Part shown: positions 7,375 to 32,259 of the stretch, in pieces | How the letters are laid out: each line of letters starts with the position of its first letter | Numbering within the stretch: position 1 is the stretch's first letter | DNA from: Tabrizicola sp. | GTDB lineage: Bacteria; Pseudomonadota; Alphaproteobacteria; Rhodobacterales; Rhodobacteraceae | Direction: 5' to 3' | DNA: 64,000 bases | Assembly: GCF_016793705.1 (NCBI RefSeq) | Contig: NZ_JAEULO010000040.1 | Coordinates: forward strand, 22,986-86,985 | The notes under the pieces: model-generated | What the model was told of the DNA's origin: nothing | Databases searched by the model: none | What the model saw: only the letters and a program-made list of their open reading frames with translations | Translations under genes and position numbers: made by a program

Positions 7375-8346
7375 ATGGCTAAAATCATCCGTCGGGCCGT
7401 GCTGGGCGGGGTGGCTGTTGCCGCCCTGGTTGGCTCGTCCCTTGCAGCCTGGGCAGAAGACGCCAAGCTGACCGTGGCCTATTTCCTGGCGGATTCGATG
7501 CTTCCGGCGCTGTACGCGCAAGAGAAGGGCTATTTCACCGAGGCCGGACTGGACGCGGAATTCATCGCCGTGCAGGGCGGGCCGGCGGTGGTTTCTGCCG
7601 TTGCCGCAGGTGAGGCCGATGTCGGCTATGCCGCACCCGTGCCGCCGATCAATGGCCGACTGAACGGCGTGCCGGTCAAGATGTTCCTGCAACTGTCGCA
7701 GGAAGTGGCGCCGGACAAGACTTATACTTGGCTGGTCGCTTCGGGGGCCTCGGGGATCAAGGATCTGGCCGGGGTGAAGGGCAAGAAGATCGGCTTCAAC
7801 GCCAATGGCGGGCTGTGCGAGCTGATGTGGCGCGACCATCTGGCAACGGTCGGCCTGACCATGGACGATGTGGAGACGGTCGTGCTGCCCTTCCCGGAAC
7901 AGGAGGCGGCGCTGGAGCAGGGCAATCTGGATGCGACCTGCACCATCAACCCGTTCCATGCTTCGATGGGGGGCAATGCCAATCTGGGCGCGGTCGAAAT
8001 CGCCACCGGCACGCTGGCCGATCTTTCCACACCGCTGATGAACGATGCGCTCTTTGCCTCGGAAGACTGGCTTGCCGCGAACGGCGAGACGGCGATCAAG
8101 CTCGCGCAGGTGATGGACAGGGCGCGCAAGGAGTTGCTTGCCGACCGTACCGCGCTGGAAGGCGCTGCGGTGCAATTCATGGAACTGACGCCGGAGGCGG
8201 CCAAGTCCTTCAGCCTGCCGATCGTCAATGAAAGCATGGTGATCACTGCGGCCGACGTGCAGCGCATTCTGGATGCCATGGTCAAGACCGGCATGCACCC
8301 CGGCCCGCTGGACGGTGCCGAATTCGTCTCGGAACTCAAATATTGA
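7375..8346 (+). CDS. ABC transporter substrate-binding protein (SsuA/TauA/NMT1-like)
   Basis: 323 residues with a signal peptide (about 1-27, ending AAWA-ED). The core has the NMT1/SsuA pattern: LTVAYFLADSMLPALYAQEKGYFTEAGLD, then GGPAVVSAVAAGEADVGYA, then a second lobe starting GIKDLAGVKGKKIGFNANGG. The family binds sulfonates, taurine, pyrimidine precursors or aromatic acids. The Cys in NANGGLCELMW is unusual and could sit in the ligand pocket. First gene of an operon with ATPase, two permeases and a sulfatase-like hydrolase; IclR-type regulator divergent. Substrate cannot be assigned from sequence. Confidence 0.88.
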   Translation: MAKIIRRAVLGGVAVAALVGSSLAAWAEDAKLTVAYFLADSMLPALYAQEKGYFTEAGLDAEFIAVQGGPAVVSAVAAGEADVGYAAPVPPINGRLNGVPVKMFLQLSQEVAPDKTYTWLVASGASGIKDLAGVKGKKIGFNANGGLCELMWRDHLATVGLTMDDVETVVLPFPEQEAALEQGNLDATCTINPFHASMGGNANLGAVEIATGTLADLSTPLMNDALFASEDWLAANGETAIKLAQVMDRARKELLADRTALEGAAVQFMELTPEAAKSFSLPIVNESMVITAADVQRILDAMVKTGMHPGPLDGAEFVSELKY

Positions 8347-8354
8347 AACGGCAG

Positions 8355-8373
8355 GGCGGGCTGTCGGCCCGCC
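8355..8373 (+). promoter_or_regulatory. Intercistronic hairpin between binding-protein and ATPase genes
   Basis: GGCGGGC-TGTCG-GCCCGCC is a perfect 7-base stem with a 5-base loop placed 9 bases after the binding-protein stop. Hairpins here commonly stabilise the upstream message, giving more binding protein than membrane components. No T-run argues against full termination. Confidence 0.5.
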
Positions 8374-8392
8374 AGCTTTTCCGGGGGACCCG

Positions 8393-9184
8393 ATGACAGG
8401 CATTCTCACCGCAAGTGACGTTGGCAAGAGCTATGGCAGCGGTGACACGCGCATGGCCATCATCGACGGGCTGAACCTGTCGATCGCCAAGGGCGAATTC
8501 GTCTCGCTGGTTGGCCCCTCCGGCTGCGGCAAGACCACCTTGCTGATGTGCCTGTCGGGCCTGCTATCGCCCAACCTGGGCAAGGTGGGCTTCAAGGGGC
8601 AGGTCGTGACCGCCCCGCCCATCGGACTTTCGGTGGTGTTTCAGGACTACTCCCGCTCGCTTCTGCCGTGGAAGACCAACCTCGACAACGTGTTGTTCGG
8701 CATGCGCCGGGTCACGGGTATGGACGCGGCGCAGAAGAAGGCGCGCGCGCTGGAAATCCTGGAAGCCGTCGGACTGCCGGGATTTGCCGGGCATTACCCC
8801 TGGCAGGTGTCTGGCGGGATGCAGCAGAGGGTGGCGATAGCCCGCGGCATCGCCTCGCAATCCGAGCTTCTGCTGCTGGACGAGCCGCTTGCCGCCGTCG
8901 ACGCCCAGACCCGCGCCGACATGCAGGATCTGCTTCTCGATCTCGCGAAGCGTTTCGACCAGACCTGTGTGCTGGTGACCCATGATGTCGAGGAAGCGGT
9001 CTACATGGCCGACCGTGTTCTGGTGCTTGGCCCCCGTCCGACCCGCGTGGTGCGTGAGATCGTCGTCGACCTGCCAAAGCCGCGCGATCAGATTTCCACC
9101 CGTGAAGCCCCGGCCTTCCTGCATGCGCGCCACGAAGTGATGGAGCTGATCCGGTCGATGCGGCAGGGCAAAGCACTGTCATGA
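8393..9184 (+). CDS. ABC transporter ATP-binding protein (SsuB/TauB-like)
   Basis: 263 residues. Walker A GPSGCGKTT at 41-49, a Q-loop in VVFQDYSRSLLPW, signature SGGMQQRVAIARG, Walker B LLLLDEPLAAVD and switch His in VTHDVEEAVYMADRV. The LLPW after the Q-loop is typical of the nitrate/sulfonate/taurine importer subfamily. The ATG at 8393 is chosen over longer in-frame extensions that run back into the binding-protein gene; GGGGGA sits upstream. Its stop overlaps the next gene's start (ATGA). Confidence 0.93.
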   Translation: MTGILTASDVGKSYGSGDTRMAIIDGLNLSIAKGEFVSLVGPSGCGKTTLLMCLSGLLSPNLGKVGFKGQVVTAPPIGLSVVFQDYSRSLLPWKTNLDNVLFGMRRVTGMDAAQKKARALEILEAVGLPGFAGHYPWQVSGGMQQRVAIARGIASQSELLLLDEPLAAVDAQTRADMQDLLLDLAKRFDQTCVLVTHDVEEAVYMADRVLVLGPRPTRVVREIVVDLPKPRDQISTREAPAFLHARHEVMELIRSMRQGKALS

Positions 9185-9966
9185 TCCCTGGAATCGCGGT
9201 TCTGGCCGAAAAGTTCCGGGTTCCGATCTGCATCGCGCTGGTTCTGGGTGTCTGGCAGATCGTGTTCGTGCTGGGGGTGGTGAACGAGAAATACTTCCCC
9301 TCGATCCCGACCATCGCTGTCGCGTTCGGACAGATGCTGACCGATGGCTCCGTGATCGCCGCCTGGGCTACCACTTTCCTGCGCGCCCTGATCGGGCTGA
9401 TCGGCGCGGCGCTTCTGGGCGTGGCGCTGGCAATCGTGTCGGACCTTTCGCCGATCCTGTCGCGCGGCATCCGCTATGTCTCGGACGTGCTTCAACCCAT
9501 TCCGCCGGCGGCTTTCGTGCCCATGGCGGTATTCATGCTCGGTCTGGGCTCCAAGCTTTACGCCTTCGTCATCATCCTCGTCACGGTTTGGCCGCCCTAT
9601 CTGAACGGCGTGGCCGCGCTCGCAGGCGTGGGGCCGGTGCAGCTGAACACCGGGCGGATGTTCGGGCTGACGAACTGGGGTCTCCTGTGGCGGGTGAAGC
9701 TGCCCGCCGCGTTGCCCGAGATATTCACCGGCATCCGCTATGCCGCGACCATCAGCCTGATCGCGGTCATCGTGTCGGAGATGCTGGCGGGCCGTGATGG
9801 CATCGGCTTCATGATCTTCAAGAAGGCCTTTGCAATGCGCACCCCCGAGGTCTTCGGCCTGATGTTCCTCGTTGCCATCAACGGCGTCTTGCTGAACGGG
9901 CTGGTCAACCTTCTGCGCCGTGGCCTGACCGGCTGGCACATGCGGATGATGGAGCGTTCGGAATGA
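9181..9966 (+). CDS. ABC transporter permease (SsuC/TauC-like), first of two
   Basis: 261 residues with about six membrane helices and the EAA loop region (ALAGVGPVQLNTGRMFGLTNWGLLWRVKLPAALPEIFTGIRYA) that docks the ATPase. Start overlaps the ATPase stop by four bases, and its own stop overlaps the second permease (ATGA), indicating translational coupling. Having two distinct permeases suggests a heterodimeric channel rather than the homodimer of SsuC. Confidence 0.9.
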   Translation: MIPGIAVLAEKFRVPICIALVLGVWQIVFVLGVVNEKYFPSIPTIAVAFGQMLTDGSVIAAWATTFLRALIGLIGAALLGVALAIVSDLSPILSRGIRYVSDVLQPIPPAAFVPMAVFMLGLGSKLYAFVIILVTVWPPYLNGVAALAGVGPVQLNTGRMFGLTNWGLLWRVKLPAALPEIFTGIRYAATISLIAVIVSEMLAGRDGIGFMIFKKAFAMRTPEVFGLMFLVAINGVLLNGLVNLLRRGLTGWHMRMMERSE

Positions 9967-10727
9967 CGCGCCAGACCCGCATCGCCCTTTGGGGCCTTCT
10001 GGTACCGCTTGCCATTCTGGCTCTCTGGCAAGTCGCGGCCATGCTGCAAAGGACACCGCTCTTCCCCGGCCCGGGCAAGGTGGCGCTGGCGATCTGGGCG
10101 AATTACCCGGTGATCCTGCGCGAACTGGGGATCACCTTGCTGCGCGCCGTCGTAGGCTTCGGGCTTGCCGCCGTGACCATGATTCCGCTTGGCATCTTCC
10201 TCGGTCGGGTCCGCGTCATTGGCCGGGTGCTGGAGCCGCTGATGGACATGCTGGCCACCCTGCCGCCCCCCGCCATCATCCCGCTGGTCATGCTCTTTGC
10301 CGGGACGGGCGACGGGGCCAAGGTGGTGATCATCGCCTATGCCGCCGCCGTGCCCCTGCTGATGAACACCTACGAGGCGTCGCACTCGATCCATCCCATG
10401 CTGTCGCGGGTGGCAAGATCGCTGCACCTCAGCCGGTTCGAGACGATGCGGCTGATCGACCTGCCCTCGTCGCTGCCGATGATCGCCACTGGCGCCCGGC
10501 TGGCCATCGCCTCCAGCCTGCTGGTCAGCGTGACCTCGGAAATGCTCTTGGCCACCAATGGTATCGGCACCTTCCTGCAACGCAGCCAGGAAACCTTCAA
10601 GATCGACGCCGGTCTGGCGGGCATCGCCTTCATCTCGCTGGCGGGAATCATTGTGAATGCGGGGGTGTTCCGCTTGGAGAAGAACTGGCTTTTCTGGCAC
10701 TATCGCGACCAGCGGCCGGCAGAGTGA
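9963..10727 (+). CDS. ABC transporter permease (SsuC/TauC-like), second of two
   Basis: 254 residues, five to six membrane helices, with an EAA-type loop around SIHPMLSRVARSLHLSRFETMRLIDLPSSLPMI. It is clearly related to the preceding permease but divergent, consistent with a heterodimer. Overlaps the preceding gene by four bases, and the sulfatase-like gene starts three bases after its stop, so the hydrolase is firmly part of the transport operon. Confidence 0.9.
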   Translation: MTRQTRIALWGLLVPLAILALWQVAAMLQRTPLFPGPGKVALAIWANYPVILRELGITLLRAVVGFGLAAVTMIPLGIFLGRVRVIGRVLEPLMDMLATLPPPAIIPLVMLFAGTGDGAKVVIIAYAAAVPLLMNTYEASHSIHPMLSRVARSLHLSRFETMRLIDLPSSLPMIATGARLAIASSLLVSVTSEMLLATNGIGTFLQRSQETFKIDAGLAGIAFISLAGIIVNAGVFRLEKNWLFWHYRDQRPAE

Positions 10728-10729
10728 CC

Positions 10730-12379
10730 ATGGCCCGTAACGTGCTTTTCATCATGTGCGACCAGCTGCGCGTCGACTACCTGTCGTGCTACGGCCACCC
10801 GCATCTGCACACGCCGAACATCGACGCGCTGGCCGCGCGCGGTGTGCGCTTCACTCAGGCCTTCGTGCAATCCACCATTTGTGGCCCGTCGCGGATGTGC
10901 ACCTATACCGGCCGCTACATGCGCAGCCATGGCAGCACCCAGAACGGTGTGCCGCTGAAGCTTGGCGAGCTGACGCTGGGCGATCACCTGAAGCAGCTTG
11001 ATGTGCGCACCGTTCTGGTCGGCAAGACCCACATGGTCGCCGATCATGAGGGGATGGCACGACTGGGCATCGCGCCGGAGAGCGTGATCGGCGTTCACGT
11101 TTCGGAATGTGGCTTCGAACCCTACGAACGCGACGACGGTCTGCACCCCGACGGCCCATATTCGCCCGATCCGGCCTATGACCGCTATCTGCGCGACAAG
11201 GGTTATCAGGCGGCGAATCCTTGGGAGCATCTGGCCAATTCCGGGCAGGCAGCGGATGGCACCATCCTGAACGGCTGGCTCTACTCGCACGCCGACAAGC
11301 CCGCCCGCGTGGCCGAGGAGGATTCAGAGACCCCCTACATGACCCGCCGCGCCATGGATTTCATGCGCGAGGCCAAGGCCAGCGGCCAGCGCTGGTGCCT
11401 GCATCTGTCCTACATCAAGCCGCACTGGCCCTATATCGTGCCCGCCCCCTATCACGAGATGTATGGCCCTCAGCATGTCCTGCCCGCCAACCGGACCGAA
11501 GAGGAGCGGGTGAACGCACATCCGATCCTGAAGGCCTTTCAAGAAGAGCGTTATTCCACCGTCTTCAACCGCGAAGGTGCGCGGGAGACCGTGATTCCGG
11601 CCTATATGGGCCTGATCAAGCAGATCGACGACCAACTGGACCTTCTGTTCCGCTTCATGGACGAGCAGGGGCTGACCGAGGAAACCGTGGTCGTCTTCAC
11701 CTCGGACCATGGCGACTACCTGGGCGATCACTGGCTGGGCGAGAAATATCTCTTCCACGCGCCCTCGGTGCAGGTGCCGCTGATCATCGCCGATCCGTCC
11801 CCCGCCGCCAATGCCACGCGCGGCACGACCTGCGAGGCGCTGGTCGAAATGATCGACCTTGCGCCGACCTTCGTCGAAGCCTTTGGCGGGGCGGCCCTGC
11901 CGCATATCCTCGAAGGCCGCTCGCTGATGCCACTCTTGCGGGGCGAACGGCCGGAGTGGCGCAAGGTCGCGATCAGCGAGTATGACTATGCCTTTGACCT
12001 GGCCCGGATAAAATTCGCCGTCCCCATTCCAGAGGCCCGGCTTTACATGGTCTATGACGGGCGCTTCAAATACATCCACGCCGATGGTTTTGCCCCGATG
12101 CTCTACGACCTGGCGACCGACCCGCAGGAGCTTCATGATCTCGGCACCGATCCCGCCCATGCCGGAATCCGGGCGCATCTCTACGAGGCGCTGGCGAAAT
12201 GGAGCCGCTCCACGCGCAGCCAGACCACGGTTTCGGATGCGGAGATCACCCGGAACGACGCGCGTGCGCAGGCCTATGACCTGAACATCGAAGCGGGCGT
12301 CCTCATCGGCTATTGGGACGAGGACGATCTTGCCGCCGAGCAGGCCAAGCGCGCGGCCTTTGTTGCCGCAGGCGGCTGA
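10730..12379 (+). CDS. Formylglycine-dependent sulfatase / phosphonate monoester hydrolase-like enzyme
   Basis: 549 residues of the alkaline-phosphatase superfamily. The sulfatase signature C-x-P-x-R-x4-T-G is present as CGPSRMCTYTGR, with Cys51 expected to become formylglycine. Metal ligands are visible in MCDQLRVDYL near the N-terminus and TSDHGDYLGDH in the second half. KPHWPY and HAPSVQVPLI are also family features. No signal peptide, so it acts in the cytoplasm on imported substrate. The overall look is closest to the phosphonate-monoester-hydrolase/arylsulfatase group. Substrate (sulfate, phosphonate or phosphodiester) is open. The start is the ATG three bases after the permease stop. 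A long open frame runs upstream but there it is a shadow of the permease. Confidence 0.85.
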   Translation: MARNVLFIMCDQLRVDYLSCYGHPHLHTPNIDALAARGVRFTQAFVQSTICGPSRMCTYTGRYMRSHGSTQNGVPLKLGELTLGDHLKQLDVRTVLVGKTHMVADHEGMARLGIAPESVIGVHVSECGFEPYERDDGLHPDGPYSPDPAYDRYLRDKGYQAANPWEHLANSGQAADGTILNGWLYSHADKPARVAEEDSETPYMTRRAMDFMREAKASGQRWCLHLSYIKPHWPYIVPAPYHEMYGPQHVLPANRTEEERVNAHPILKAFQEERYSTVFNREGARETVIPAYMGLIKQIDDQLDLLFRFMDEQGLTEETVVVFTSDHGDYLGDHWLGEKYLFHAPSVQVPLIIADPSPAANATRGTTCEALVEMIDLAPTFVEAFGGAALPHILEGRSLMPLLRGERPEWRKVAISEYDYAFDLARIKFAVPIPEARLYMVYDGRFKYIHADGFAPMLYDLATDPQELHDLGTDPAHAGIRAHLYEALAKWSRSTRSQTTVSDAEITRNDARAQAYDLNIEAGVLIGYWDEDDLAAEQAKRAAFVAAGG

Positions 12380-12419: not shown

Positions 12420-13526
12420 TCAGCTTCTCGCCCGCTTCCGTTCGGGATCGTGGACCGGCAGGTCGACCAGAACGCCCGGCGAACCTGCTGCGAAAACCTT
12501 CGCTCCCGTCGTCGCCCGGATCGGGTCGATGCGCGCCATGGCGAGCATTTGACCGCCGAGCAGGGGTGAGGGGACTGCCATGCTGATCTTTCCCACGGCC
12601 TCGCCATCGGCCAGGACTTCGGCCCCGTCGAGGCCCTCGGTTCCTTCGGGAAAGGCAATGGCTGCCACTGTGACGCGCGGTGTGGCCTTGGAGGCGGCAA
12701 GCGCCACCTTGCCCTGGAAGTCCGGTTTCGACAGATCGACGGCCCAGCCCATCCGGCATTCCCAGGGGGTGGAGTTTTCGTCGTAGTCGAGCCCGCCCAT
12801 GATCAGCCCGGCCTCGATCCGCGCCATCATCAGGCCCACGCCACCCACCGGGCGCAGGCCGTGGGCGACCCCTGCAACCGTCAGGGCCTGCCACAGCTTC
12901 GGCACCTCCGCCACGGGCAAAAGCAGCTCATACCCCAGCTCTCCGGTGAACCCCAGGCGACTGATCTGCATCGGTATCCCGGCAATCTCGACGCCCGTGC
13001 GAAAGCTGTAGTAGGGCAGGCTTTCGTTCGAGAGGTCGGCCTTTGTCAGCCCCTGCAACAGGGCGCGCGAGTTCGGGCCCTGCACGGCGATCTGCCCAAA
13101 TTCGGCGCGGCATTCCCGAACGTGAACGCCCGGCCCGGCATGATGCGACAACTCCGCGCCCAGGCGCGGGTTTGCCCCCATCACCATGACCCGCTCCGGG
13201 CCGTGAAGGAACACGGTGCAGTCGTCGATCATGTGACCGTCCGGACCTACCACCACGCCATAGGCAACCCGCCCCGGCTTCATCGCCGTCACATCGCGCG
13301 AGAACAGCCGGTTCACACAGTCCGCGGCGCCCGGCCCGGTGACATCGTATTTCAACAGCATCGAGAACTCGATCACCGCCACGCGGTTGCGAATGGCGTC
13401 GTATTCCGCCGCGGGATCGCCCCATGTGACCGGGATGGCAAAGCCGAAGACGTCCATCCAGTCTGCCACCCCTTCGGCATAAAGGGGCGCCAGCGGCGTT
13501 GGCATCAGCCCTTCTGGATAACTCAT
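12420..13526 (-). CDS. GcvT-like aminomethyltransferase (tetrahydrofolate-dependent)
   Basis: 368 residues, normal for GcvT/DmdA-type proteins. The N-terminal folate-binding GcvT domain shows AVIEFSMLLKYDVTGPGA and the GHMIDDCTVF segment containing the conserved Asp. The C-terminal barrel begins near WAVDLSKPDFQGKVAL. The start ATG overlaps the stop of the TMADH-like gene by four bases (13523-13526), so the two are translationally coupled. The likely role is to accept the one-carbon unit formed by the flavoprotein and hand it to tetrahydrofolate as methylene-THF. Alternative: a stand-alone demethylase such as a DmdA relative. Part of the minus-strand operon with the permease at 15771. Confidence 0.8.
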   Translation of the reverse strand: MSYPEGLMPTPLAPLYAEGVADWMDVFGFAIPVTWGDPAAEYDAIRNRVAVIEFSMLLKYDVTGPGAADCVNRLFSRDVTAMKPGRVAYGVVVGPDGHMIDDCTVFLHGPERVMVMGANPRLGAELSHHAGPGVHVRECRAEFGQIAVQGPNSRALLQGLTKADLSNESLPYYSFRTGVEIAGIPMQISRLGFTGELGYELLLPVAEVPKLWQALTVAGVAHGLRPVGGVGLMMARIEAGLIMGGLDYDENSTPWECRMGWAVDLSKPDFQGKVALAASKATPRVTVAAIAFPEGTEGLDGAEVLADGEAVGKISMAVPSPLLGGQMLAMARIDPIRATTGAKVFAAGSPGVLVDLPVHDPERKRARS

Positions 13527-15688
13527 TTCGCAGCCCTCCCACCCAAGGCCGCCGACAAGGTGGGGGCGCCCAGCCGGTAATCCTCTTCCGTCGCGCCGAT
13601 AAGACGGCGCTCGCGGATGAAGGGCTGGTGCGTGTCGGGATCGTCGCTGTCGAACTCGCGCGCCAGCCGCGCGCCCGAGAAGGTCGCCTGCGCGATCATC
13701 CCCGGCGTATGCGCGTCGCCGATCAGGTGGATCGAGGCGATGCCCGCCTCTTTCAACCGCTCTGGCTGGGCCTGAAGCTGGTCGTAGATCGCGCATTCGG
13801 ACTTGCGATAGGTGACCATCAGCACCGAGTCACAGGGGGTTTCGGTTTCCTCGGCGGTCCATTTGTGAACCGAAGTCACCTTGCCACCCTCGACCGACAG
13901 CGCGAACTGCATGGGCAGAAGCTTCACGCCAAGCTCCATCAGCGTCATGTGGACGCGCTGTTCCTCCAAAGTGTAGCGCAAATAGGGGCCGACGCTTTCG
14001 TTGTGGGTCAAATAGACCACCTCATGCCCCTTCTGGGCCAGGTCGATCGCCACGGCAGAGCCCATGTAGTAGGCGTCATGGTCGACGACGACTACCCGCT
14101 TGCCCACCGGCTTTCCCCCCGCCATGTATTGATCCGGCGTGACGATCTCGGGCCTCGAGGCATCTGCCCCGGCAATGTAATCGTGGATCGGCGCACTCAT
14201 GCCGGTCGTGTCCCAGCTGGAACCGGTGGCGAAGATGACATGCCGCGCGCCGTAGTTCAGGATGTCGTCCAGGCTGAGCGTGTTGTTCAGTTCCATCCCC
14301 ACATTGGTGTGCAGTTTCAGCTGCGTCAGCCGCCAGTCAGCAACCCGCTTCCAGGCGCCGAAGCCCGGCAGTTTCGTCACCCAGTTCAGATGGCCGCCGA
14401 CGACCGGCTGGGCGTCGATCAGCTGCACGGTTTCATAGCCGCGCTTGCCGAGCACCATGGCACATTCCAGACCGGCGGGACCGGCGCCCACCACCATGAT
14501 CGCGGGTTCGGGGTTGCGCGTCGGCGTGAATTTCTCCGGGTGCCAGCCGCGGCGGTATTCCTCGCCCGCGGTCGTATTCTGCGTGCACCAAATCGGCGGG
14601 CCACCCTTCTCCCAGCGGCTGACGCAGACGTTGCAGCCGATGCATTCGCGGATGTCCTCATACCTGCCATCCCGGATCTTGTTCGGCAGGAACGGGTCGG
14701 CGATTGAGGGCCGCGCCATGCCGATGATGTCGCACTGGCCGGAATTGATCGCCTTGACCATCACGTCGGGATCGGTGAAGCGGCCGACATTGATGACGGG
14801 CTTTTTCGACACCCGCTTGGCGTGGCGCGTATAGGGGGCTTCGTGATTGCTCTCGAAGAATCGCGACGATCCGGCATCCTCACCCCAGTTCAGGGTGCCG
14901 ATGTTGATGTCCCAGTAATCCACCAGATCATCCAGCAGGGCGATGAACTTCACCCCATCCTCCTCGGCCCGCACGCCCTGGTCGCCATAGCCGAATGGCA
15001 TGTCCAGCGTGTCGATCGGGAAGCGGATGCCGATGGCGCAATCCTTGATCTCATCGCGCAGCATCTGCATCAGCTCGACCGTAAAGCGCGCGCGGTTCTC
15101 GAAGCAGCCACCGTATGCGTCGGCGCGCTTGTTGTTCCAGGGATAGAGGAAATAGTTCGGAACGGTCGCCAGTCCGCAGAAGACCGTCAACAGGTCGAAC
15201 CCTGCCTCGCGCGCCCGGTGCGCCGCATCGACATGGTCGCGCTGCATCTTGCGGATGTCCTTCAGCGACATCTCGCGGGCGCTCGACATGCCCTCCATCT
15301 CGTTCGGGACTTGCGAGGGCGCGCGGTTCGGCATCCGGGTTTCGGCGTTGAAGCAGAAGCTGGAGCCATGGGTCAGTTCCACCCCGGCAAGCCCGCCGTG
15401 CTTGTGGATTTCATCCGTCATCATCCGCAGGTTCCGGATGTCGCCCTGGTCGATCAGCTTGCTGCCGACCCAGGGCATCGAGTCACTGTCGGGGGCGACC
15501 ATGCAGACCTCGGTGAAGGCCGCCGCAAAGCCGCCCTCGGCCTTCATGCCGCGGTGCATGGCCTGAAAGCCGGGCCGGTCCGACCCCGCACCATTGCAAT
15601 GCGGCACTTGCCAGAACCGGTTGCGCAGGGTCTTGGGGCCGATCCGGATGGGTTCGAACAGCACGTCATGTCTGGGATCACGAGCCAT
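13523..15688 (-). CDS. Trimethylamine/dimethylamine dehydrogenase-like iron-sulfur flavoprotein
   Basis: 721 residues, colinear with TMADH. Residues 1-380 are the old-yellow-enzyme barrel, with HDVLFEPIRIGPKTLRNRF and Cys31 in QVPHC matching the cysteine that covalently binds FMN. Cys349, 352, 355 and 368 match the 4Fe-4S ligands. Residues from about 390 form the ADP/NAD-binding domains (IMVVGAGPAGLECA). Trp268, Asp271 and Trp359 match TMADH W264, D267 and W355. In contrast, the positions of TMADH Tyr60, Tyr169 and His172 are Val61, Phe170 and Leu173. So it should bind the cofactors but not use the TMADH Tyr-His chemistry; a related methylated amine or betaine is likely. Coupled to the GcvT-like gene. 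Confidence 0.85.
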   Translation of the reverse strand: MARDPRHDVLFEPIRIGPKTLRNRFWQVPHCNGAGSDRPGFQAMHRGMKAEGGFAAAFTEVCMVAPDSDSMPWVGSKLIDQGDIRNLRMMTDEIHKHGGLAGVELTHGSSFCFNAETRMPNRAPSQVPNEMEGMSSAREMSLKDIRKMQRDHVDAAHRAREAGFDLLTVFCGLATVPNYFLYPWNNKRADAYGGCFENRARFTVELMQMLRDEIKDCAIGIRFPIDTLDMPFGYGDQGVRAEEDGVKFIALLDDLVDYWDINIGTLNWGEDAGSSRFFESNHEAPYTRHAKRVSKKPVINVGRFTDPDVMVKAINSGQCDIIGMARPSIADPFLPNKIRDGRYEDIRECIGCNVCVSRWEKGGPPIWCTQNTTAGEEYRRGWHPEKFTPTRNPEPAIMVVGAGPAGLECAMVLGKRGYETVQLIDAQPVVGGHLNWVTKLPGFGAWKRVADWRLTQLKLHTNVGMELNNTLSLDDILNYGARHVIFATGSSWDTTGMSAPIHDYIAGADASRPEIVTPDQYMAGGKPVGKRVVVVDHDAYYMGSAVAIDLAQKGHEVVYLTHNESVGPYLRYTLEEQRVHMTLMELGVKLLPMQFALSVEGGKVTSVHKWTAEETETPCDSVLMVTYRKSECAIYDQLQAQPERLKEAGIASIHLIGDAHTPGMIAQATFSGARLAREFDSDDPDTHQPFIRERRLIGATEEDYRLGAPTLSAALGGRAAK

Positions 15689-15770: not shown

Positions 15771-17213
15771 TCAGTCGCGGTTGGCGCCCATCCGGGCAAA
15801 GCGCGCGGGACTGGCCGTCTCGAGCCGCGCCGCGACCAGCCAGCCCGCGAGACCAAAGACCGGAACCAGACCTGGCAGGATCCAAGACAGTGGCGGCACG
15901 GTGCCGGTCGAGGGGCCGAAGCCGATCAGGGTATAGATCGCCATCGCTGCCATCAGCAGGCCCGAGACGACCGGGGCCAGCACCACCTTCCAGCCGGGCT
16001 CTTCGCCCCGATGGCGGCGGAAGAAGGCCAGCACCGCGAAGGAGGTGATCGCCATCATGGTCAGCACGCCCAGAACCGAGACCTGGGCGACCCAGGTGAA
16101 CAGGTTCAGCACCGGATCCAGCCCCATCGCGGCAAAGAAGATCACGACCACGATCGCCATTGCCGTCTGCACGACCGAGCCGACATGCGGGCTTTGATGG
16201 CTGTCGTGGGTCACCCCCATGAAGCCAGGCAGCAGCCCCTCTCGGCCCGTGACATAGAAATACCGGGCGATGAAGTTGTGCATGGCCTGGGCCGAAGCGA
16301 AGATTGATGTGACCAGCAGGACGCCGAGGATCATCGCCACCGTGCCCCCGGCATATTGCTCGGCCAGTCCGAAAAGATAGAGCGTCGGGTCAGGCAGTGC
16401 GGCAATGGCGGGCACCAGTGCGTCGACCCCGGTACCCACAACCATGGTCCAGGTGGTGAAAGTGTAGAACAGCCCGATCAGGATGATGGCAAGGAATGTC
16501 GCCCTTGGCACGGTGCGGTCGGCATCGCGCACCTCCTCGGTGTAGATCGCCGTCGCCTCGATGCCGATGAAGGAGCCGAAGGTGAACAGGATCGCGGCCA
16601 CCGTGCCGCCGGGCACGAAGATCAGCGCGGGATCGAGGATGTTGTAGGACAGATCGCCCGCTCCACCCCTTGCGAGGATCGAGACGGCCACGATCAGGCC
16701 GATCACCACCTCCAGGGATACCAGGACCATCAGCACCCTGGCGGACAACTCGGCTTCCTTGTAGCCCAGGATGCCGATCAGTGCCGTGGCGATCAGGCTC
16801 CATCCCCACCACGGCAGGTTCAGGCCGAACTGGCCGAAGACGCCCGAGGCGACGCCGCCCAGAAGGCCCAAGAGTCCGAACATCATGGCGTTGTAGGCGA
16901 GAACCGCGATCAGCGCGACAGTGCCACCGGCCCTCCCTCCCAGAGCGCGGGCGCTGTAGGCATAGAAGGCGCCCGCGTTGCGGACCCGCCTGGCAAGCGC
17001 GACGAAACCCACCGCCCAGATCGCCATGATGATCGCCATCAGGACGAAGGTGCCGGGAATTCCCGCTCCATTGCCCAGCAACATGGCGATCGGGATGGCC
17101 CCGGCAATGCCGGTCAGCGGCGCCGCCGCCGAAATCACCATGAACACCAGCAGGCTCAATCCGATGGAGTTCTTCTTTAGGGTGTGAACCCTGTCGTGAC
17201 CGCTTTGGTCCAT
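15771..17213 (-). CDS. APC-superfamily amino acid/amine permease
   Basis: 480 residues with about 12 membrane helices. The first helix carries the APC substrate motif (LVFMVISAAAPLTGIAGAIPIAMLLG), helix 6 reads FGSFIGIEATAIYTEEVRDADRTVPRA (consensus helix 6 of APC transporters), and the C-terminus has two more helices. It precedes the TMADH-like gene by 82 bases on the same strand and probably supplies the substrate for the flavoprotein/GcvT pair. A TetR-type gene is divergent. Substrate class (amino acid, betaine or amine) is inferred from the neighbours. Confidence 0.85.
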   Translation of the reverse strand: MDQSGHDRVHTLKKNSIGLSLLVFMVISAAAPLTGIAGAIPIAMLLGNGAGIPGTFVLMAIIMAIWAVGFVALARRVRNAGAFYAYSARALGGRAGGTVALIAVLAYNAMMFGLLGLLGGVASGVFGQFGLNLPWWGWSLIATALIGILGYKEAELSARVLMVLVSLEVVIGLIVAVSILARGGAGDLSYNILDPALIFVPGGTVAAILFTFGSFIGIEATAIYTEEVRDADRTVPRATFLAIILIGLFYTFTTWTMVVGTGVDALVPAIAALPDPTLYLFGLAEQYAGGTVAMILGVLLVTSIFASAQAMHNFIARYFYVTGREGLLPGFMGVTHDSHQSPHVGSVVQTAMAIVVVIFFAAMGLDPVLNLFTWVAQVSVLGVLTMMAITSFAVLAFFRRHRGEEPGWKVVLAPVVSGLLMAAMAIYTLIGFGPSTGTVPPLSWILPGLVPVFGLAGWLVAARLETASPARFARMGANRD

Positions 17214-17587
17214 GTTGCTGTCATCCCTGTTCGCATGTCGTTGGTGTCTTGTCGCCTTCGATGGCTTCCGTGGCTGTCCGGCAAAGCTTCTCCCGGCGAC
17301 GAACCAAGAGGTTCGCCGGGGCAGCCTTGGGTGCCACGGTCAGTTGGGTAGAGGTCGGGGTCGGCTGATGGGCCGACATCGTTCAGGCAGTCTTGCGGCG
17401 CGCAGGCCATAAGTCAAGTATTTCTTGAGTTTTGCAATTCACTGCCCGACACTGCCGCGGAGGGACAGCCGCGATGCACGGCAAGCGACGGAAAACAATG
17501 AAACTCTCAAGTCGACCTGGGCTTGATGCGTTTCGGGTTTCCTTCTGCAGCAACTTGGCTACGCTTGCCGAACCAGAGGATGCGCCG
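17214..17587. other. Divergent control region between permease and TetR genes
   Basis: 374 bases with no convincing gene. An open frame reaches upstream of the tetR gene from 17432, but its first 52 codons look unrelated to TetR proteins. Apart from the inverted repeat at 17414-17428, the region is GC-rich and otherwise featureless. Confidence 0.5.
17414..17428. promoter_or_regulatory. Candidate TetR operator
   Basis: TCAAG-TATTT-CTTGA is a perfect five-base inverted repeat in an AT-rich island between the divergent permease and TetR genes. Read on the minus strand the flank offers a TTGACT -35-like box pointing toward the permease operon. Short arms make this a tentative call. Confidence 0.35.
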
Positions 17588-18208
17588 ATGAAACCTGAAG
17601 ACTTCTTGCTGGTCCAACCCCAACAGGACCGCGCCTTGGCCAAGTTCCGCAAGATGGTCGATGCCGGCATCGAAATCCTGGCCGAAAGCGGTTTCGCCGG
17701 GCTGACGACGGATGCCATCGCGGCAAGGGCCGGAGTGAATATCTCGACATTCTACAAATACTTCCCCAACCGCGAGGCGCTGGTCCGCTATCTGGCGGTG
17801 GACTTCATCGACAAGCAGACCGCCTCGATGCTGGCGGTGATCGACCGGATGCCGCCCGATGCGCCGCTGGAGGTGGTGATTCCCGCCATGCTGGATGCGG
17901 CGGTGGACGATTGGGCGGGCAACGCCGCCTCGCGCGCGCTGCAAGGCAGCTTCATCCTCGATCCGGTGCTCTACGACGCCTACAGCCGCAGCAGCCAGGA
18001 CGTCGCGGTCGCGCTGCAACCCTTCATGGCCGTCTGGAACATCGAGGGCAATTTCGAGGATTGGGACCGGATGCATTCGGTCTTCGGCGACAGCGCCATC
18101 GTGTTGTTCGACCGCGCCGCGAAGGCCGAGCCGGACGAGCAGGCCAAGGTCGTCACCCAGCTGAAAAAGCTCGCCGTTGCCTACTTCAAGACTGCCGTAA
18201 GGACCTGA
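17588..18208 (+). CDS. TetR-family transcriptional regulator
   Basis: 206 residues. The helix-turn-helix spans about residues 25-60 (FAGLTTDAIAARAGVNISTFYKYFPNREALVRYL, the canonical TetR pattern), followed by a helical ligand domain. ATG 17588 is chosen because GAGGA lies six bases before it; a longer frame starting at 17432 adds 52 residues unlike TetR N-termini. Divergent from the permease-TMADH-GcvT operon, which it most likely represses. Confidence 0.88.
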   Translation: MKPEDFLLVQPQQDRALAKFRKMVDAGIEILAESGFAGLTTDAIAARAGVNISTFYKYFPNREALVRYLAVDFIDKQTASMLAVIDRMPPDAPLEVVIPAMLDAAVDDWAGNAASRALQGSFILDPVLYDAYSRSSQDVAVALQPFMAVWNIEGNFEDWDRMHSVFGDSAIVLFDRAAKAEPDEQAKVVTQLKKLAVAYFKTAVRT

Positions 18209-18272: not shown

Positions 18273-18932
18273 TCAGATCAACGGGGCATCACTCTCGACC
18301 ATGCCCGAGCGGATCATGGCGGCGGTCTGCAGGTAGTGGTCGCGCAGCAGACGTTCGGCCCGGGTCGTATCCCGTGCCAGGACGGCATCGGCGATGTCGC
18401 CATGTTCGGCGTCGATGTCGCGTTTTTGCGGCCCGGCGTCCAGCAGCGCGGGGATGCGATAGCGCTCGGTCGCGGCATAGAGGCGTTCGAAGAAGTTCAT
18501 CAGCCAGTCGGAGCCGCAGGCCGCAAGAAGCGCGCGGTGAAAGGCGTGATGGCGGGTCTTCAATTCGTCCACATCGCTGCTTTCCCGCCCGGTCTGTCGA
18601 CGAAGGGCGTAAAGCGCGGCGACGATCGACGCCTCCCAGGCATCGTCGCCCTGCGCGATCGAAAGACGCAGCGCCTCGGTCTCGACCAGAAGGCGGGCGT
18701 GCAGGGCATCTTCGAACTCGGCCAGCGACCGGGCCGAGACGCGGAAGCCGCGCAGGGATTCGGCAGTGACAAGGCGTTCCGCCTGAAGCCGGTTCAGCGC
18801 CTCGCGCAGCGGCGAGAAGCCCATCCTGTAGCGCTCGCTGAGTTCGGCAAGGCGCAGCGGGCTGTCGGGAGCGAAGCAGCCATCGACGATGTCTTTGCGC
18901 AGGGAAACATAGGCTTTTTCCGCAAGAGTCAT
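18273..18932 (-). CDS. GntR-family regulator (FCD/FadR type)
   Basis: 219 residues. The N-terminal winged helix (LRLAELSERYRMGFSPLREALNRLQAERLV) is followed by an all-helical FCD ligand domain (EFEDALHARLLVETEALRL, with His in ELKTRHHAFHRALL and ILxxH-like EHGDIADAVLARD). FCD domains often bind organic acids through a metal. It is divergent from the bicupin/FAH/nitrilase operon, and a large inverted repeat lies between, so it should control that operon. Start MTLAEKAYV was preferred over upstream in-frame ATGs because it gives the canonical N-terminus. Confidence 0.9.
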   Translation of the reverse strand: MTLAEKAYVSLRKDIVDGCFAPDSPLRLAELSERYRMGFSPLREALNRLQAERLVTAESLRGFRVSARSLAEFEDALHARLLVETEALRLSIAQGDDAWEASIVAALYALRRQTGRESSDVDELKTRHHAFHRALLAACGSDWLMNFFERLYAATERYRIPALLDAGPQKRDIDAEHGDIADAVLARDTTRAERLLRDHYLQTAAMIRSGMVESDAPLI

Positions 18933-18985
18933 GATCGCATCCTTCACTGGCCGCAGCATATCCAGAGCCGGCGACACGTGCAATT

Positions 18986-19071: not shown

Positions 19072-20193
19072 ATGGCCGCCAAACGCGAAAACCACCGTGA
19101 GGATGTTGTCGGCCGCGCCAATGTCGAGGATACGCCGGAGCTTTTGGCCTATTACGACCAGCTCGAAGGCTACCATGCCGGTGCGCTCTGGACCGTGGCG
19201 AACAAGATCGAGCCCTGGCAGCCGCAAAGCCAGTCGGTCCCGGTGGTCTGGAGATACAAGGACCTGCGCGATCATGTGATCCGCTCGGTCGATCTGGTGA
19301 CGCCAGAGAAGGCGGGGCGTCGGGTGATCTATCTGAACAACCCGGGGCGGCAGGACGTGGCGGCGGCGGTCGGCTGGATCTATGCCGGCCTTCAGGTGAT
19401 GAAGCCGGGCGAGGTGGCCGGCGCCCATCGCCATTCGGCCAGCGCGATCCGCTTCATCATGGAAGGGCGCGGTGCCTATACCGTCGTCGACGGTCACAAG
19501 ATGACGCTCGGCGCGAATGATTTCGTGCTGACCCCCAACGGCACCTGGCACGAACATGGCGTCAGCGCGGATGGGGCGCTGTGCCTGTGGCAGGACGGGC
19601 TGGACATTCCCTTCGTCAACGCGATGGAGGCGAATTTCTACGAAGTGCACCCCGACCTCAACCAGGCGGTGGGCTATGCCGTCGACGACATGACCAAGAC
19701 CTGGGGCAATCCGGGGCTGACCCCCTATGGCGACAGATGGGGCAAGGCCTACAGCCCGATGCTCAAATACGAATGGGCACCCACCTATGACGCGCTGACC
19801 CGCTATTCGGCATGCACGGGGGGAAGCCCGTTCGATGGTGTGCTGATGGAATACGTCAACCCGACGACCAATGGCCCGGTGATGCAGACGCTGGGTGCCA
19901 GCATGCAGATGCTGCGGCCGGGTGAGCAGACGAAGGCGCATCGCCACACCGGCAGCTACCTCTATCATGTCGCCAAAGGCCGGGGCCATTCGATCATAAA
20001 CGGCAAGCGGTTCGACTGGCAGGAACGCGACATTTTCTGCGTTCCCTCCTGGGCGTGGCACGAACACGTCAACGCATCGGACCGCGAGGATGCCTGCCTC
20101 TTCTGCCTGAACGACCTGCCGGTCATGCGGGCGCTCGGGCTCTATCGGGAAGAGGCTTTCGGTGAAAACGGCGGCCAGCAGCCGCTTCTGTAA
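19072..20193 (+). CDS. Gentisate 1,2-dioxygenase-like bicupin
   Basis: 373 residues, the usual length for gentisate/salicylate-type ring-cleaving bicupins. First cupin: AHRHSASAIRFIMEGRGAYTVVDG, with iron ligands expected at His119, His121 and His160 (GTWHEHG). Second cupin: AHRHTGSYLYHVAKGRGHSIINGKRFDWQERDIFCVPSWAWHEH. The enzyme would open a hydroxylated aromatic carboxylate to a maleylpyruvate-type product. It is followed 9 bases later by an FAH-family hydrolase, the usual next step. Exact substrate (gentisate, salicylate, hydroxynaphthoate or a hydroxypyridine acid) is not fixed by the sequence. Confidence 0.85.
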   Translation: MAAKRENHREDVVGRANVEDTPELLAYYDQLEGYHAGALWTVANKIEPWQPQSQSVPVVWRYKDLRDHVIRSVDLVTPEKAGRRVIYLNNPGRQDVAAAVGWIYAGLQVMKPGEVAGAHRHSASAIRFIMEGRGAYTVVDGHKMTLGANDFVLTPNGTWHEHGVSADGALCLWQDGLDIPFVNAMEANFYEVHPDLNQAVGYAVDDMTKTWGNPGLTPYGDRWGKAYSPMLKYEWAPTYDALTRYSACTGGSPFDGVLMEYVNPTTNGPVMQTLGASMQMLRPGEQTKAHRHTGSYLYHVAKGRGHSIINGKRFDWQERDIFCVPSWAWHEHVNASDREDACLFCLNDLPVMRALGLYREEAFGENGGQQPLL

Positions 20194-20202
20194 GGACTGA
20201 TC

Positions 20203-21126
20203 ATGAAACTGGTGACCTACCGCGCCTCGGTCGAAAGCGCGGCCCGTCTTGGGGTGATCGAGGGCGATCTTGTCGTCGACGTGGAGCGGCTGGCGGCCGC
20301 GCAGGGCGAGTGCCTGCCGGCGACCATGCTGGGGCTGATCGACACCGGCCGCCCGGGGCTGGAGACTCTGCGCGCCTGTCTGGCGGCGGCGAAGGGCCGC
20401 CACAAGCCCGGCACGGCGACGGCCCTGTCGAACGTGTCTCTTCTCGCTCCGATCCCGCGGCCGCGGAAGAACATCTTCGGGATCGGACTCAACTATGTCG
20501 AGCATGTCGCGGAAAGCGCGGCCTCTCTGGACACGTCCAAGGACCTGCCGAAACAGCCGGTGGTGTTCTCGAAGCCGCCGACGACGGTGATCGGGCCAGG
20601 CGACGCGATCCAGCACGACACCAAGATGACCAGGCAGCTGGACTGGGAGGTGGAACTGGCCGTCATCATCGGCACCACCGCCCGTCGCGTCCGGCGCGAG
20701 GCGGCCCTGGCGCATGTCTTCGGCTATTCTGTGATGATCGACGTCTCGGCCCGCGACAACCGCCGCGCGGGCCAGTGGATCTTCTCCAAGGGCATGGACA
20801 GCTACGCCCCCTTCGGCCCCGTACTCGTCACGGCGGACGAGATTCCCGATCCGCAGTGCCTGGACCTGTGGCTGACCGTCAACGGGGTGGAAAAGCAGCG
20901 GTCGAACACGCGTCACATGCTGTTCAAGGTCGATGAGCTGATCGCCGACATCTCGACCGGTATGACGCTGGAACCGGGCGACATCATCGCCAGCGGCACG
21001 CCGGAAGGCGTCGGCGCGGGCAGGTCGCCGCAGGAATGGCTGAAACCGGGCGACGTGGTCCTGGGCCATGTGCAGGGGATCGGCACGCTGCGCAATCCGG
21101 TCGTGAACGCGACCCCGGAAGACTGA
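20203..21126 (+). CDS. Fumarylacetoacetate hydrolase-family protein (fumaryl-/maleylpyruvate hydrolase candidate)
   Basis: 307 residues. The catalytic FAH domain starts around residue 85 (RPRKNIFGIGLNYVEHV), contains the metal-binding Glu pair in LDWEVELAVIIG and Asp in MIDVSARDNRR, and ends with MTLEPGDIIASGTPEGVGAG. It would cleave the ring-fission product of the bicupin into pyruvate plus fumarate or maleate. No maleylpyruvate isomerase is present nearby, so direct hydrolysis of the cis compound, or an isomerase encoded elsewhere, has to be assumed. Confidence 0.85.
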   Translation: MKLVTYRASVESAARLGVIEGDLVVDVERLAAAQGECLPATMLGLIDTGRPGLETLRACLAAAKGRHKPGTATALSNVSLLAPIPRPRKNIFGIGLNYVEHVAESAASLDTSKDLPKQPVVFSKPPTTVIGPGDAIQHDTKMTRQLDWEVELAVIIGTTARRVRREAALAHVFGYSVMIDVSARDNRRAGQWIFSKGMDSYAPFGPVLVTADEIPDPQCLDLWLTVNGVEKQRSNTRHMLFKVDELIADISTGMTLEPGDIIASGTPEGVGAGRSPQEWLKPGDVVLGHVQGIGTLRNPVVNATPED

Positions 21127-21210
21127 CAGGTTGCATTTCCTGACCGGAAGGTTCCTGTGGGGGTCCGGGGGTGCTGCGCTCCGGGGCCCCGATCCTTAGC
21201 GGAGGCGACG

Positions 21211-22140
21211 ATGTCCACCCCCTTCACTTCTGCCGTGGTCCAGATGGCCTCGGTCCCCAATGACCCGCTGGCCACCGCCGAAAAGGCCGCCCTGCGGCTG
21301 CGCGAAGCCGCTGAAAATGGCGCTCGGCTGGTGGTTTTCCCCGAGGCGCTGATCGGCGGCTACCCCAAGGGCGCCAGCTTCGGCGCGCCGATCGGCATGC
21401 GCAAGCCCGAGGGGCGCGCGGCCTTCGCGCGCTACCACGCCTCGGCCATCGACCTGGACGGACCCGAGGTCGCCTGCCTGACCGAAGCCTGCACTGAAAC
21501 GGGTGTCTTCGCCGTCGTCGGCGTGATCGAACGCGACGGTGCGACGCTCTATTGCACCGTCCTCTACCTTGATGGCGCAAAGGGGCTGGTCGGCAAGCAT
21601 CGCAAGCTGATGCCCACGGCGGGCGAGCGCCTGATCTGGGGCTTTGGCGACGGATCGACGATGCCCGCCTTCAAGACCGACCTCGGCACCATCGGCGCAG
21701 TGATCTGCTGGGAAAACTACATGCCGGCGCTGCGGATGCATATGTATCACCAGGGCGTCAGCCTGTATTGCGCGCCCACTGCGGATGACCGCGACACCTG
21801 GCTTCCCACCATGCAGCACATCGCGCTGGAAGGCCGCACCTTCGTTCTGACTGCCTGCCAGCACATCACCCGCGCCGCCTATGGTCCCGACCACGAAAGC
21901 GCGCTCGGCGACGAGCCCGACCGCGTGATGATGCGCGGCGGATCGGCCATCGTGTCACCTATGGGTCGGGTGCTGGCCGGACCGGATTTCAATGGCGAGA
22001 CCGTGCTCTACGCCGAGATCGATCCCGACGAGGTGATGCGCGCCAAGTTCGACTTCGACGTGACCGGCCACTACGCCCGGCCGGACGTCTTCCAGCTGAT
22101 CGTGGACAGCCGGGCGAAACCTGCGGTGCGCGAAATCTGA
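21211..22140 (+). CDS. Nitrilase
   Basis: 309 residues. The Glu-Lys-Cys triad is visible as Glu45 (VVFPEALIGGYPKG), Lys132 (KHRKLMPT) and Cys166 (VICWENYMP). The CWENYMP and HRKLMPTAGER segments are those of true nitrilases rather than amidases. It converts an organic nitrile to the acid plus ammonia. It starts after a GGAGG site, and its stop overlaps the next start (ATGA-type TGATG). Its place in a ring-cleavage operon suggests that an aromatic or heteroaromatic nitrile is an entry substrate. Confidence 0.9.
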   Translation: MSTPFTSAVVQMASVPNDPLATAEKAALRLREAAENGARLVVFPEALIGGYPKGASFGAPIGMRKPEGRAAFARYHASAIDLDGPEVACLTEACTETGVFAVVGVIERDGATLYCTVLYLDGAKGLVGKHRKLMPTAGERLIWGFGDGSTMPAFKTDLGTIGAVICWENYMPALRMHMYHQGVSLYCAPTADDRDTWLPTMQHIALEGRTFVLTACQHITRAAYGPDHESALGDEPDRVMMRGGSAIVSPMGRVLAGPDFNGETVLYAEIDPDEVMRAKFDFDVTGHYARPDVFQLIVDSRAKPAVREI

Positions 22141-22772
22141 TGCGCTACGACCTTGACCGGGTGCCCGAGCCGATCGCCTACAAGCTCCTGGCCGCGACCG
22201 TCATTCCCCGGCCCATCGCCTGGGTGGTGACCAAGGGGAAGGAGGGGTTGAACGCCGCGCCCTATTCGTTCTTCAACGTCATGGGATCGGCCCCGCCGAC
22301 CATCGCGCTGGGGCTGATGGCGGCGCCGGACCGCGGGTTCAAGGACACCGCGCTGAACATCCTCGAAACCGGGGAATTCGTCGTGAACCTGGTGCCGGAA
22401 CGGCTGGCCGGGCAGATGAACCTGACCGCAGCCGACGCGCCGCGCGGGGTGGACGAACTCGCTCTGGCGGGGCTGGAAACGCTGCCCTCGACCCACATCG
22501 CCCCGCCCCGCATCGCCGAAAGCCCGGTTGCCTTCGAATGCCGGTCGCTGTCCTCGGTCATCACCGGTCCGTGCCAGACGGTCGTGATCGGCCGCGTGCT
22601 CGCCGTGCATATCGAGGACCGGTTCCTCAAGGACCCCGATCGCGCGCATATCCGGACCGACGCGCTTGACCTCGTGGCCCGCAGCTACGGCAGCGACTAT
22701 GTCCGCACACACGACACGTTCCGACTGGACCGTCCGACCTGGGCGGGGCTGAAGGCCGAAGGAAAAGTCTGA
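22140..22772 (+). CDS. Flavin reductase-like FMN-binding protein
   Basis: 210 residues of the split-barrel flavin reductase/DIM6-NTAB type (IPRPIAWVVTKGKEGLNAAPYSFFNVMG, then FVVNLVPERLAGQMNLT). Such proteins bind FMN and may be reductases for a two-component oxygenase or act alone. No partner oxygenase is visible. It begins one base into the nitrilase stop codon and is the last intact gene of the operon. Confidence 0.85.
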   Translation: MRYDLDRVPEPIAYKLLAATVIPRPIAWVVTKGKEGLNAAPYSFFNVMGSAPPTIALGLMAAPDRGFKDTALNILETGEFVVNLVPERLAGQMNLTAADAPRGVDELALAGLETLPSTHIAPPRIAESPVAFECRSLSSVITGPCQTVVIGRVLAVHIEDRFLKDPDRAHIRTDALDLVARSYGSDYVRTHDTFRLDRPTWAGLKAEGKV

Positions 22773-25774: not shown

Positions 25775-25919
25775 GCGGGCCTTCCTTCGGGAGCATGCGG
25801 CGAAAGCGGGCAGCCTTACTCCGGCTGTCCGGAAAAGGGAAGACCGGCCCGGCATTTCCGGCTGGCCTGCGTCCGTCCAGCCCGCTAAACGGACGGAACA
25901 TCATTCCGGATCCCACAAC

Positions 25920-30961: not shown

Positions 30962-31064
30962 TGCATTCCCGTCGGCAACTCCTTGCCGATCCCCGGCCCG
31001 GGCGGAACCCCCCGCCCGCGGCCAAGGTTTCCATGCCAGTTTACAACAGCATGGAGACACTCCA

Positions 31065-31424: not shown

Positions 31425-31430
31425 TCTCTC

Positions 31431-31462: not shown

Positions 31463-31478
31463 CCTCCGGGGTCCGGCC

Positions 31479-32234: not shown

Positions 32235-32259
32235 CCCCCGCACAACTGGGAAGACCCTC

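Follow-up and report, generated by a model that had tools for sequence, protein, structure and literature searches.

How does a flavin amine dehydrogenase work, and on what, once the side chains that manage its substrate's proton have been lost? The question is raised by a gene in a 64,000-nucleotide stretch of Tabrizicola sp. DNA (RefSeq assembly GCF_016793705.1, contig NZ_JAEULO010000040.1, positions 22,986 to 86,985 of the forward strand; the whole stretch analysed is called the window below). Its product, P0001, belongs to the family of trimethylamine dehydrogenase (TMADH), the textbook flavin amine dehydrogenase, in which a Tyr/His relay governs how the bound amine loses its proton; the role of this relay has been studied by mutation, and single relay mutants are reported to be still active. 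P0001 is a real, conserved and rare variant of this family, and folate-coupled N-demethylation is its most likely function.

Residues of P0001 against trimethylamine dehydrogenase

P0001 has the hallmarks of the TMADH-family iron-sulfur flavoproteins, namely the cysteine that binds flavin mononucleotide (FMN), four iron-sulfur cysteines, and Oxidored_FMN and Rossmann domains. TMADH itself is the closest solved structure (1djn, 737.5 bits, residues 2-695), and next come two histamine dehydrogenase structures at about 500 bits (3k30, 6de6) and HisD (6l6j, 483 bits). The initial annotation of this gene, which was made from the DNA letters alone, described the protein as colinear with TMADH over the first 190 residues, and the alignment in fact runs without gaps up to TMADH residue 213. 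A 119-row MAFFT alignment, mapped residue by residue, shows the TMADH numbering used there to be correct. By that mapping P0001 retains Cys30 (as Cys31), Arg222 (as Arg222), Trp264 (as Trp268), Asp267 (as Asp271), Trp355 (as Trp359) and all four iron-sulfur cysteines (Cys345, 348, 351 and 364, as Cys349, 352, 355 and 368), so that the cofactor residues and the bowl residues Trp264, Trp355 and Asp267 are intact, as proposed. Likewise, Tyr60, Tyr169 and His172 are indeed replaced by Val61, Phe170 and Leu173, and an alignment artefact is ruled out because there are no gaps close to these sites and relatives carry the same set. P0001 thus lacks both Tyr60, a residue of the aromatic bowl, and the Tyr169-His172-Asp267 triad of TMADH proper, having Phe170, Leu173 and Asp271 at the triad positions. 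Further changes are Trp105 to Thr106, Tyr106 to His107, Tyr174 to Thr175, Val344 to Glu348 and Tyr442 to Arg448. Val344 and Tyr442 are contact residues of TMADH for electron-transferring flavoprotein (ETF); their change was not taken as proof of another electron acceptor, since Glu and Arg are the state of most rows outside TMADH.

None of the solved relatives aligned (TMADH, two histamine dehydrogenases, HisD) has the Val/Phe/Leu set. The histamine dehydrogenases and HisD share the family with P0001, but they retain Tyr169 and His172 and lack Trp355 (by eye for 6l6j), where P0001 has Phe170, Leu173 and Trp359. Rows with Gln60, putatively dimethylamine dehydrogenase-like, resemble P0001 in having position 60 replaced and Trp264, Asp267 and Trp355 retained; they differ in keeping Tyr169 and His172 and in their place within the TMADH clade. 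Orthology of P0001 to dimethylamine or histamine dehydrogenase is consequently ruled out by residues and tree together. The AlphaFold model of P0001 is moderate (pLDDT 71.4, pTM 0.58, with stretches below 50 that include residues 266-274 and 350-386), and its best fold match is TMADH (2tmd, E 1.9e-71), albeit at a TM-score of 0.46 and a root-mean-square deviation of 18. As a prediction it supports family membership, and no pocket modelling was based on it.

Features of the P0001 locus in window coordinates; codon places within P0001 are computed from the start at 15688
Feature	Position	Strand	Basis or remark
ABC transporter: NMT1/SsuA-like binding protein, ATPase, two permeases; runs into sulfatase gene	7375..10727	+	family models
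SpAS1-type sulfatase; C51 (CGPSR) and GKTHM motif present	10730..12379	+	59.6% identical to R. pomeroyi SpAS1
GcvT-like aminomethyltransferase, 368 amino acids	12420..13526	-	PF01571; ATG overlaps flavoprotein TGA (ATGA)
TMADH-family flavoprotein P0001, 721 amino acids: FMN barrel, 4Fe-4S motif, Rossmann-type domains	13523..15688	-	open reading frame, domain, alignment, fold match
Fe-S C349, C352, C355, C368, with W359 (TMADH W355) in between	14585..14644	-	alignment
W268 to D271 (TMADH W264 to D267), both present	14876..14887	-	alignment
Leu173 codon (TMADH His172)	15170..15172	-	alignment
Phe170 codon (TMADH Tyr169)	15179..15181	-	alignment
Val61 codon (TMADH Tyr60)	15506..15508	-	alignment
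Cys31 codon (FMN-binding Cys30 position of TMADH)	15596..15598	-	alignment
APC-family permease, upstream of flavoprotein gene	15771..17213	-	family models
TetR-family regulator, divergent; start probably further downstream	17432..18208	+	72-76% identical to Gemmobacter, G343 ones
FCD-type regulator	18273..18959	-	63% identical to Aminobacter pAA02 one
Ring-cleavage module: gentisate-type cupin dioxygenase, FAH-family hydrolase, carbon-nitrogen hydrolase, flavin reductase	19072..22772	+
Remnant of NicX-like (M29) gene, behind ring-cleavage module	22920..23120	+

A rare and conserved clade

The loss of these residues is not peculiar to one genome. A quick IQ-TREE phylogeny (LG+G4, 120 rows) was built from the closest relatives of P0001, the best 80 loci and others, so that its fractions are not those of the whole family; the count omits the two histamine dehydrogenase references, the frameshifted L010, the duplicate L098, four distant rows of the Tabrizicola genome itself (L004-L007) and rows that are only partial (L028, L064, L086, L091). 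P0001 groups with ten other rows in a single deep clade (11 of 120 rows, SH-aLRT 99), separate from the one to which TMADH and the Gln60 rows belong. By a hand count from the tree labels, His172 is retained in 93 of the 120 rows and absent from 27: the 11 of the P0001 clade, nine of a second clade and seven others, four of which make up one Glu group.

Three further TMADH-like proteins or groups deserve mention in their own right. The second clade (L015, L045, L050, L052-L054, L056, L057, L059) has Thr/Ser/Val and Asp in place of Tyr169 and His172, and in five of its nine loci DgcB and EtfB queries match one and the same place next to the flavoprotein gene, perhaps a single fused gene. A deviant protein on a Rhodococcus plasmid (L014, 7001-9163) has Ala/Met/Ile at the three positions, lacks Trp264 and adjoins cytochrome P450 and alcohol dehydrogenase genes. 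The Tabrizicola genome itself carries a further TMADH-like gene with Tyr/Tyr/His (L002, contig C15), which adjoins an open reading frame that resembles, by eye, an MttB-type methyltransferase.

Within the P0001 clade the Val/Phe/Leu set recurs in genome G343 (L097, 91% identical), in Gemmobacter (L009, 89%) and in the N-terminal piece of the Aminobacter protein (L010, 78%). Four proteins of the Candidatus Thioglobus order, at 69% identity, are divided between Val/Tyr/Leu and Val/Phe/Leu, two of each, and four rows from the L017 genome and its order have Ser/Tyr/Val. Position 169 is thus Phe or Tyr even among Thioglobus-order proteins that are 94-95% identical to L018; because it toggles in this way, only the changes at positions 60 and 172 are fixed, and clade members can do without Tyr169.

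The gene is under purifying selection. In comparison with G343 it shows a Ka of 0.054 at a Ks of 0.794, and with Gemmobacter a Ka of 0.067 at a Ks of 0.872; the resulting Ka/Ks of 0.07-0.08 rules out a decaying pseudogene. It is also rare. Proteins with Val/Phe/Leu occur in three of 394 genomes of the bacterial family, the own genome included; three more of the 394 gave matches at the limit used, and these are TMADH- or dimethylamine dehydrogenase-like by residues. At E 1e-215 the own genome is the sole match in samples of 385 genomes from the class and 398 from the phylum, and no other match above 50% identity to P0001 was found in a genus sample of 32 genomes, the own included. Matches number 4 of 83 in the Thioglobus order and 3 of 166 in the order of L017, starting genomes counted. 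This patchy spread suggests that the flavoprotein gene has moved horizontally; it is plasmid-borne in Gemmobacter and Aminobacter. In the record of Aminobacter aminovorans plasmid pAA02 (L010, 9001-11149) an apparent frameshift leaves the flavoprotein gene annotated as two overlapping pieces.

A folate partner and the proposed reaction

The initial annotation made no use of the gene that overlaps the end of the flavoprotein gene, and this coupled GcvT-like gene is the stronger functional clue. Its product contains a GCV_T folate-binding domain (PF01571, 7.3e-58), its best NCBIfam model is trimethylamine N-oxide demethylase (1e-62, below that model's cut-off), and its Asp-Asp and TGELGYE-type motifs line up with the GcvT portion of SoxA, which is encoded in the same window. 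A GcvT-like folate module is paired with a demethylation step in trimethylamine N-oxide demethylase, in the sarcosine oxidase subunit SoxA and in dimethylglycine oxidase; unlike in these, the GcvT-like partner of P0001 is a separate, overlapping gene that adjoins a TMADH-family flavoprotein. Twelve clade loci were compared (the window, L009, L010, L017, L018, L104, L119, L120, L121, L126, L127 and L128, with L017 and L128 lying at contig ends). The GcvT-like gene stands directly downstream in six of them (the window, L009, L010, L104, L018, L120) and is divergent, 0.9-2.7 kb off, in two (L126, L127); in Gemmobacter it is followed by PurU. In the open-licence literature, as far as it was available in part, no report of a TMADH-like/GcvT pair or of a P0001-type variant was found.

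The genes that would be expected to take the electrons are another matter. A DgcA-type demethylase gene stands beside genes for a DgcB-like iron-sulfur protein and ETF, and this arrangement is common around TMADH-type loci with the residues YYH/WDW (DgcB in 19 of 21, EtfB in 16 of 21, L012 included). By contrast, L012 queries turned up no DgcB- or EtfB-like gene in any of 11 further clade loci, a few of which lie on short contigs, and family models showed none among the neighbours in the window flanks. In the P0001 clade, then, the folate partner appears to stand without electron-transfer genes. The likeness of P0001 to TMADH, which extends over colinearity, cofactor residues, Trp264, Asp267, Trp355, Arg222 and the top fold match, accordingly ends at Tyr60, Tyr169, His172, Val344 and Tyr442, at the separate clade and at this apparent lack of a DgcB/ETF neighbour.

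Taken together, P0001 is probably a folate-linked flavin N-demethylase. That it is a working one is argued by the retained cofactor residues and by purifying selection; N-demethylation with hand-over to folate by the P0001/GcvT-like pair is what we infer from the gene arrangement. The FMN would oxidise an N-methyl C-H bond of the amine, electrons would pass by way of the 4Fe-4S cluster to an acceptor whose gene did not turn up nearby, and the GcvT-like protein would capture the methylene unit on tetrahydrofolate as 5,10-methylene-tetrahydrofolate, so that free formaldehyde is avoided. To judge from neighbouring genes, the N-methylamine may first be imported and, where a sulfate ester is present, relieved of it, and the demethylated amine may afterwards enter the ring-cleavage pathways encoded nearby.

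What the loss of the relay means for the substrate had been read in the initial annotation as a sign of a different mechanism or of a substrate needing no such help, such as a zwitterionic methylated amine. This is supported in so far as P0001 is a conserved TMADH relative in which either the substrate or its protonation differs. It is not supported that a zwitterionic methylated amine could do without such help. At neutral pH a secondary or tertiary amine in zwitterionic form carries a proton, which has to leave before hydride loss, while the quaternary nitrogen of a betaine has no lone pair to drive that loss; a zwitterion is neither shown nor chemically required as substrate. A low-pKa amine, or a different group that takes up the proton, is a better fit. 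The Val/Phe/Leu pocket is more hydrophobic and, having no Tyr-His relay, would suit a bulkier, low-pKa amine that is neutral on binding, of which an N-methyl aromatic amine, already neutral at physiological pH, is an example. Action on a pyridine-ring amine would have precedent in this protein family, as 6l6j is by its title a 6-hydroxypseudooxynicotine amine oxidase. Homarine and trigonelline were set aside as direct substrates, an aromatic quaternary nitrogen not being oxidisable in this way, and the open-licence literature, in the parts available, showed nothing that links the P0001 unit to homarine.

Neighbouring genes and the nature of the substrate

Genes around the flavoprotein in three lineages give hints of a substrate that is an aromatic N-methylamine and possibly carries an O-sulfate group. 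In the window the sulfatase has both marks of the SpAS-type arylsulfatases, the formylglycine cysteine motif CGPSR and His103 (GKTHM). SpAS1 is described as an arylsulfatase, His103 as separating arylsulfatases from phosphonate monoester hydrolases, and the H103E change as harming each of the four SpAS1 activities that were assayed (PMC5488252). A choline-sulfatase route was set aside, as SpAS1 and SpAS2 are described as giving no detectable choline from choline-O-sulfate (PMC5870055). The window also has a gene for a TauE/SafE-type exporter (25626-26738, with a match from residue 112 of the open reading frame), which is possibly relevant to release of sulfate or sulfite.

The ring-cleavage genes point the same way. 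Those from the cupin to the flavin reductase, together with the NicX-like remnant, lie 2-6 kb away from where the APC gene starts, and they are closely related to genes on Aminobacter pAA02 (cupin 84%, FAH 81%, carbon-nitrogen hydrolase 85%, flavin reductase 72% identical). On that plasmid the row runs cupin, FAH, carbon-nitrogen hydrolase, flavin reductase, NicX-like M29 enzyme (5.7e-58 to the 2,5-dihydroxypyridine dioxygenase NicX), acyl-CoA-dehydrogenase-like protein, alpha/beta hydrolase, TetR, GS family, LysR-annotated protein, APC, flavoprotein and GcvT, and both of its ends stand side by side in the window. Contig C9 of the own genome carries a NicX-like copy with an open frame (82%), along with the genes that come next in the Aminobacter row; the ring-cleavage cluster of this genome seems to have been split by rearrangement. 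The cupin occurs in three of nine genomes asked (the own genome, G343 and G1148), and the NicX-like gene in three of seven, the same three. In G343 the ring row is complete and lies on a contig separate from the flavoprotein, and G1148 has cupin (58%) and NicX-like gene (46%) on contigs other than the flavoprotein's; no match to either was found in Gemmobacter (G361), in the Thioglobus-order genomes asked or in G1233. As to the permeases, the APC gene is split into two open reading frames in Gemmobacter fulvus (L009, 7478-8920), and in G343 the APC on the flavoprotein side (L104) is short and only 54% identical, with an 82% identical APC ending the ring cluster on another contig.

Sulfatase and ring cleavage meet again in Ruegeria pomeroyi, where a protein that matches the SpAS1 structure 4upi over its whole length is encoded after a TTT transporter, a cupin (62% identical to that of the window) and an FAH protein (68%); the SpAS1 locus resembles the window in these adjoining genes, but no TMADH-like match was found in the 21-kb R. 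pomeroyi stretch. That SpAS1 stands on the megaplasmid (L151, 8957-17757) behind a TTT transporter and a set of carbon-nitrogen hydrolase, gentisate-type cupin and FAH genes is itself a clue to its native substrate. In the Thioglobus order, a TTT transporter and a sulfatase follow the flavoprotein in four of four genomes, then a GATase; in L018 two of the TTT proteins share 58-60% identity with R. pomeroyi counterparts, and the sulfatase groups with the SpAS enzymes. The Thioglobus locus also has HpaD-, HpaE- and HpaG-like genes of homoprotocatechuate type (all below NCBIfam cut-offs), a P450 gene and a GS-family gene, 6-11 kb from the flavoprotein and for the most part in converging orientation.

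An aromatic or heteroaromatic N-methylamine is, on these grounds, a possible but tentative substrate class. The wider picture would be a catabolic unit, passed on horizontally, for aromatic amines with N-methyl groups that often occur in water as O-sulfates; in this unit a transporter, an arylsulfatase, the relay-free flavoprotein and a GcvT-like methyl channel to methylene-tetrahydrofolate are joined to ring cleavage of gentisate, NicX or homoprotocatechuate type, depending on the host; as a whole this is a rather speculative proposal. Several observations weigh against this whole reading, the folate-linked demethylase included. Gemmobacter has permease, flavoprotein, GcvT and PurU without a cupin, NicX-like or SpAS-type match, so that the aromatic link is not universal. 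A SpAS-type sulfatase was found in only one of six genomes asked, the own genome, and G343 has none; the Thioglobus sulfatase has Glu, by eye, at the position of SpAS1 His103. Four plasmid stretches with a related cupin contain no close TMADH-like, GcvT-like or APC gene, two of them giving distant matches of old yellow enzyme type only. Co-occurrence of the ring and sulfatase modules with the flavoprotein has no genome-wide background rate with which to compare it. Finally, no GcvT-like gene was seen in the stretches read of L119 and L121, two of the four Thioglobus-order loci, and GcvT-like genes lie near 11 of 21 TMADH-type loci, so that the pairing is not special to the P0001 clade.

The alternative that survives best is a DgcA/StcD-like demethylase acting on a zwitterionic N-methyl amino acid such as N-methyltyrosine, N-methylproline or dimethylglycine. 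The permease belongs to the amino-acid APC family, aminotransferase and indolepyruvate oxidoreductase genes adjoin the related cupin and SpAS1 in R. pomeroyi, and the window has sarcosine oxidase genes at 29.7-36 kb; this substrate is nonetheless unlikely, given that the clade loci searched gave no DgcB/EtfB match and that zwitterionic amines need deprotonation too. The sarcosine oxidase genes themselves (29714-36030) comprise soxB and soxA by NCBIfam, with small subunits assigned by position. Oxidation of the other C-N bond, with release of methylamine by a deaminating dehydrogenase of the kind of its relatives histamine dehydrogenase and HisD, is improbable. Glu348 and Arg448 are as in histamine dehydrogenase-like rows, and a GS-family gene lies two genes upstream of the unit's APC gene in Aminobacter and about 8.5 kb off in a Thioglobus-order genome; but the solved relatives of this kind retain Tyr169/His172, TMADH is the closest solved match (737 bits versus about 500 and 483), and the coupled GcvT-like gene would be left without a role. 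That amine chemistry is lost and P0001 is a reductase of the old yellow enzyme/2,4-dienoyl-CoA reductase type or a structural partner, as the vanished relay and a superfamily common to reductases might suggest, is highly improbable, since both pocket tryptophans, the aspartate and the flavin cysteine of TMADH are retained and the listed NCBIfam reductase models score far below their cut-offs.

For the family, a conserved clade without Tyr60 and His172, and with Tyr169 toggling to Phe among close homologues, constitutes a natural test of the role of the TMADH relay. More broadly, the unit suggests a route for the use of methylated, possibly sulfated, amines in a few scattered bacteria, among them relatives of the marine Candidatus Thioglobus.

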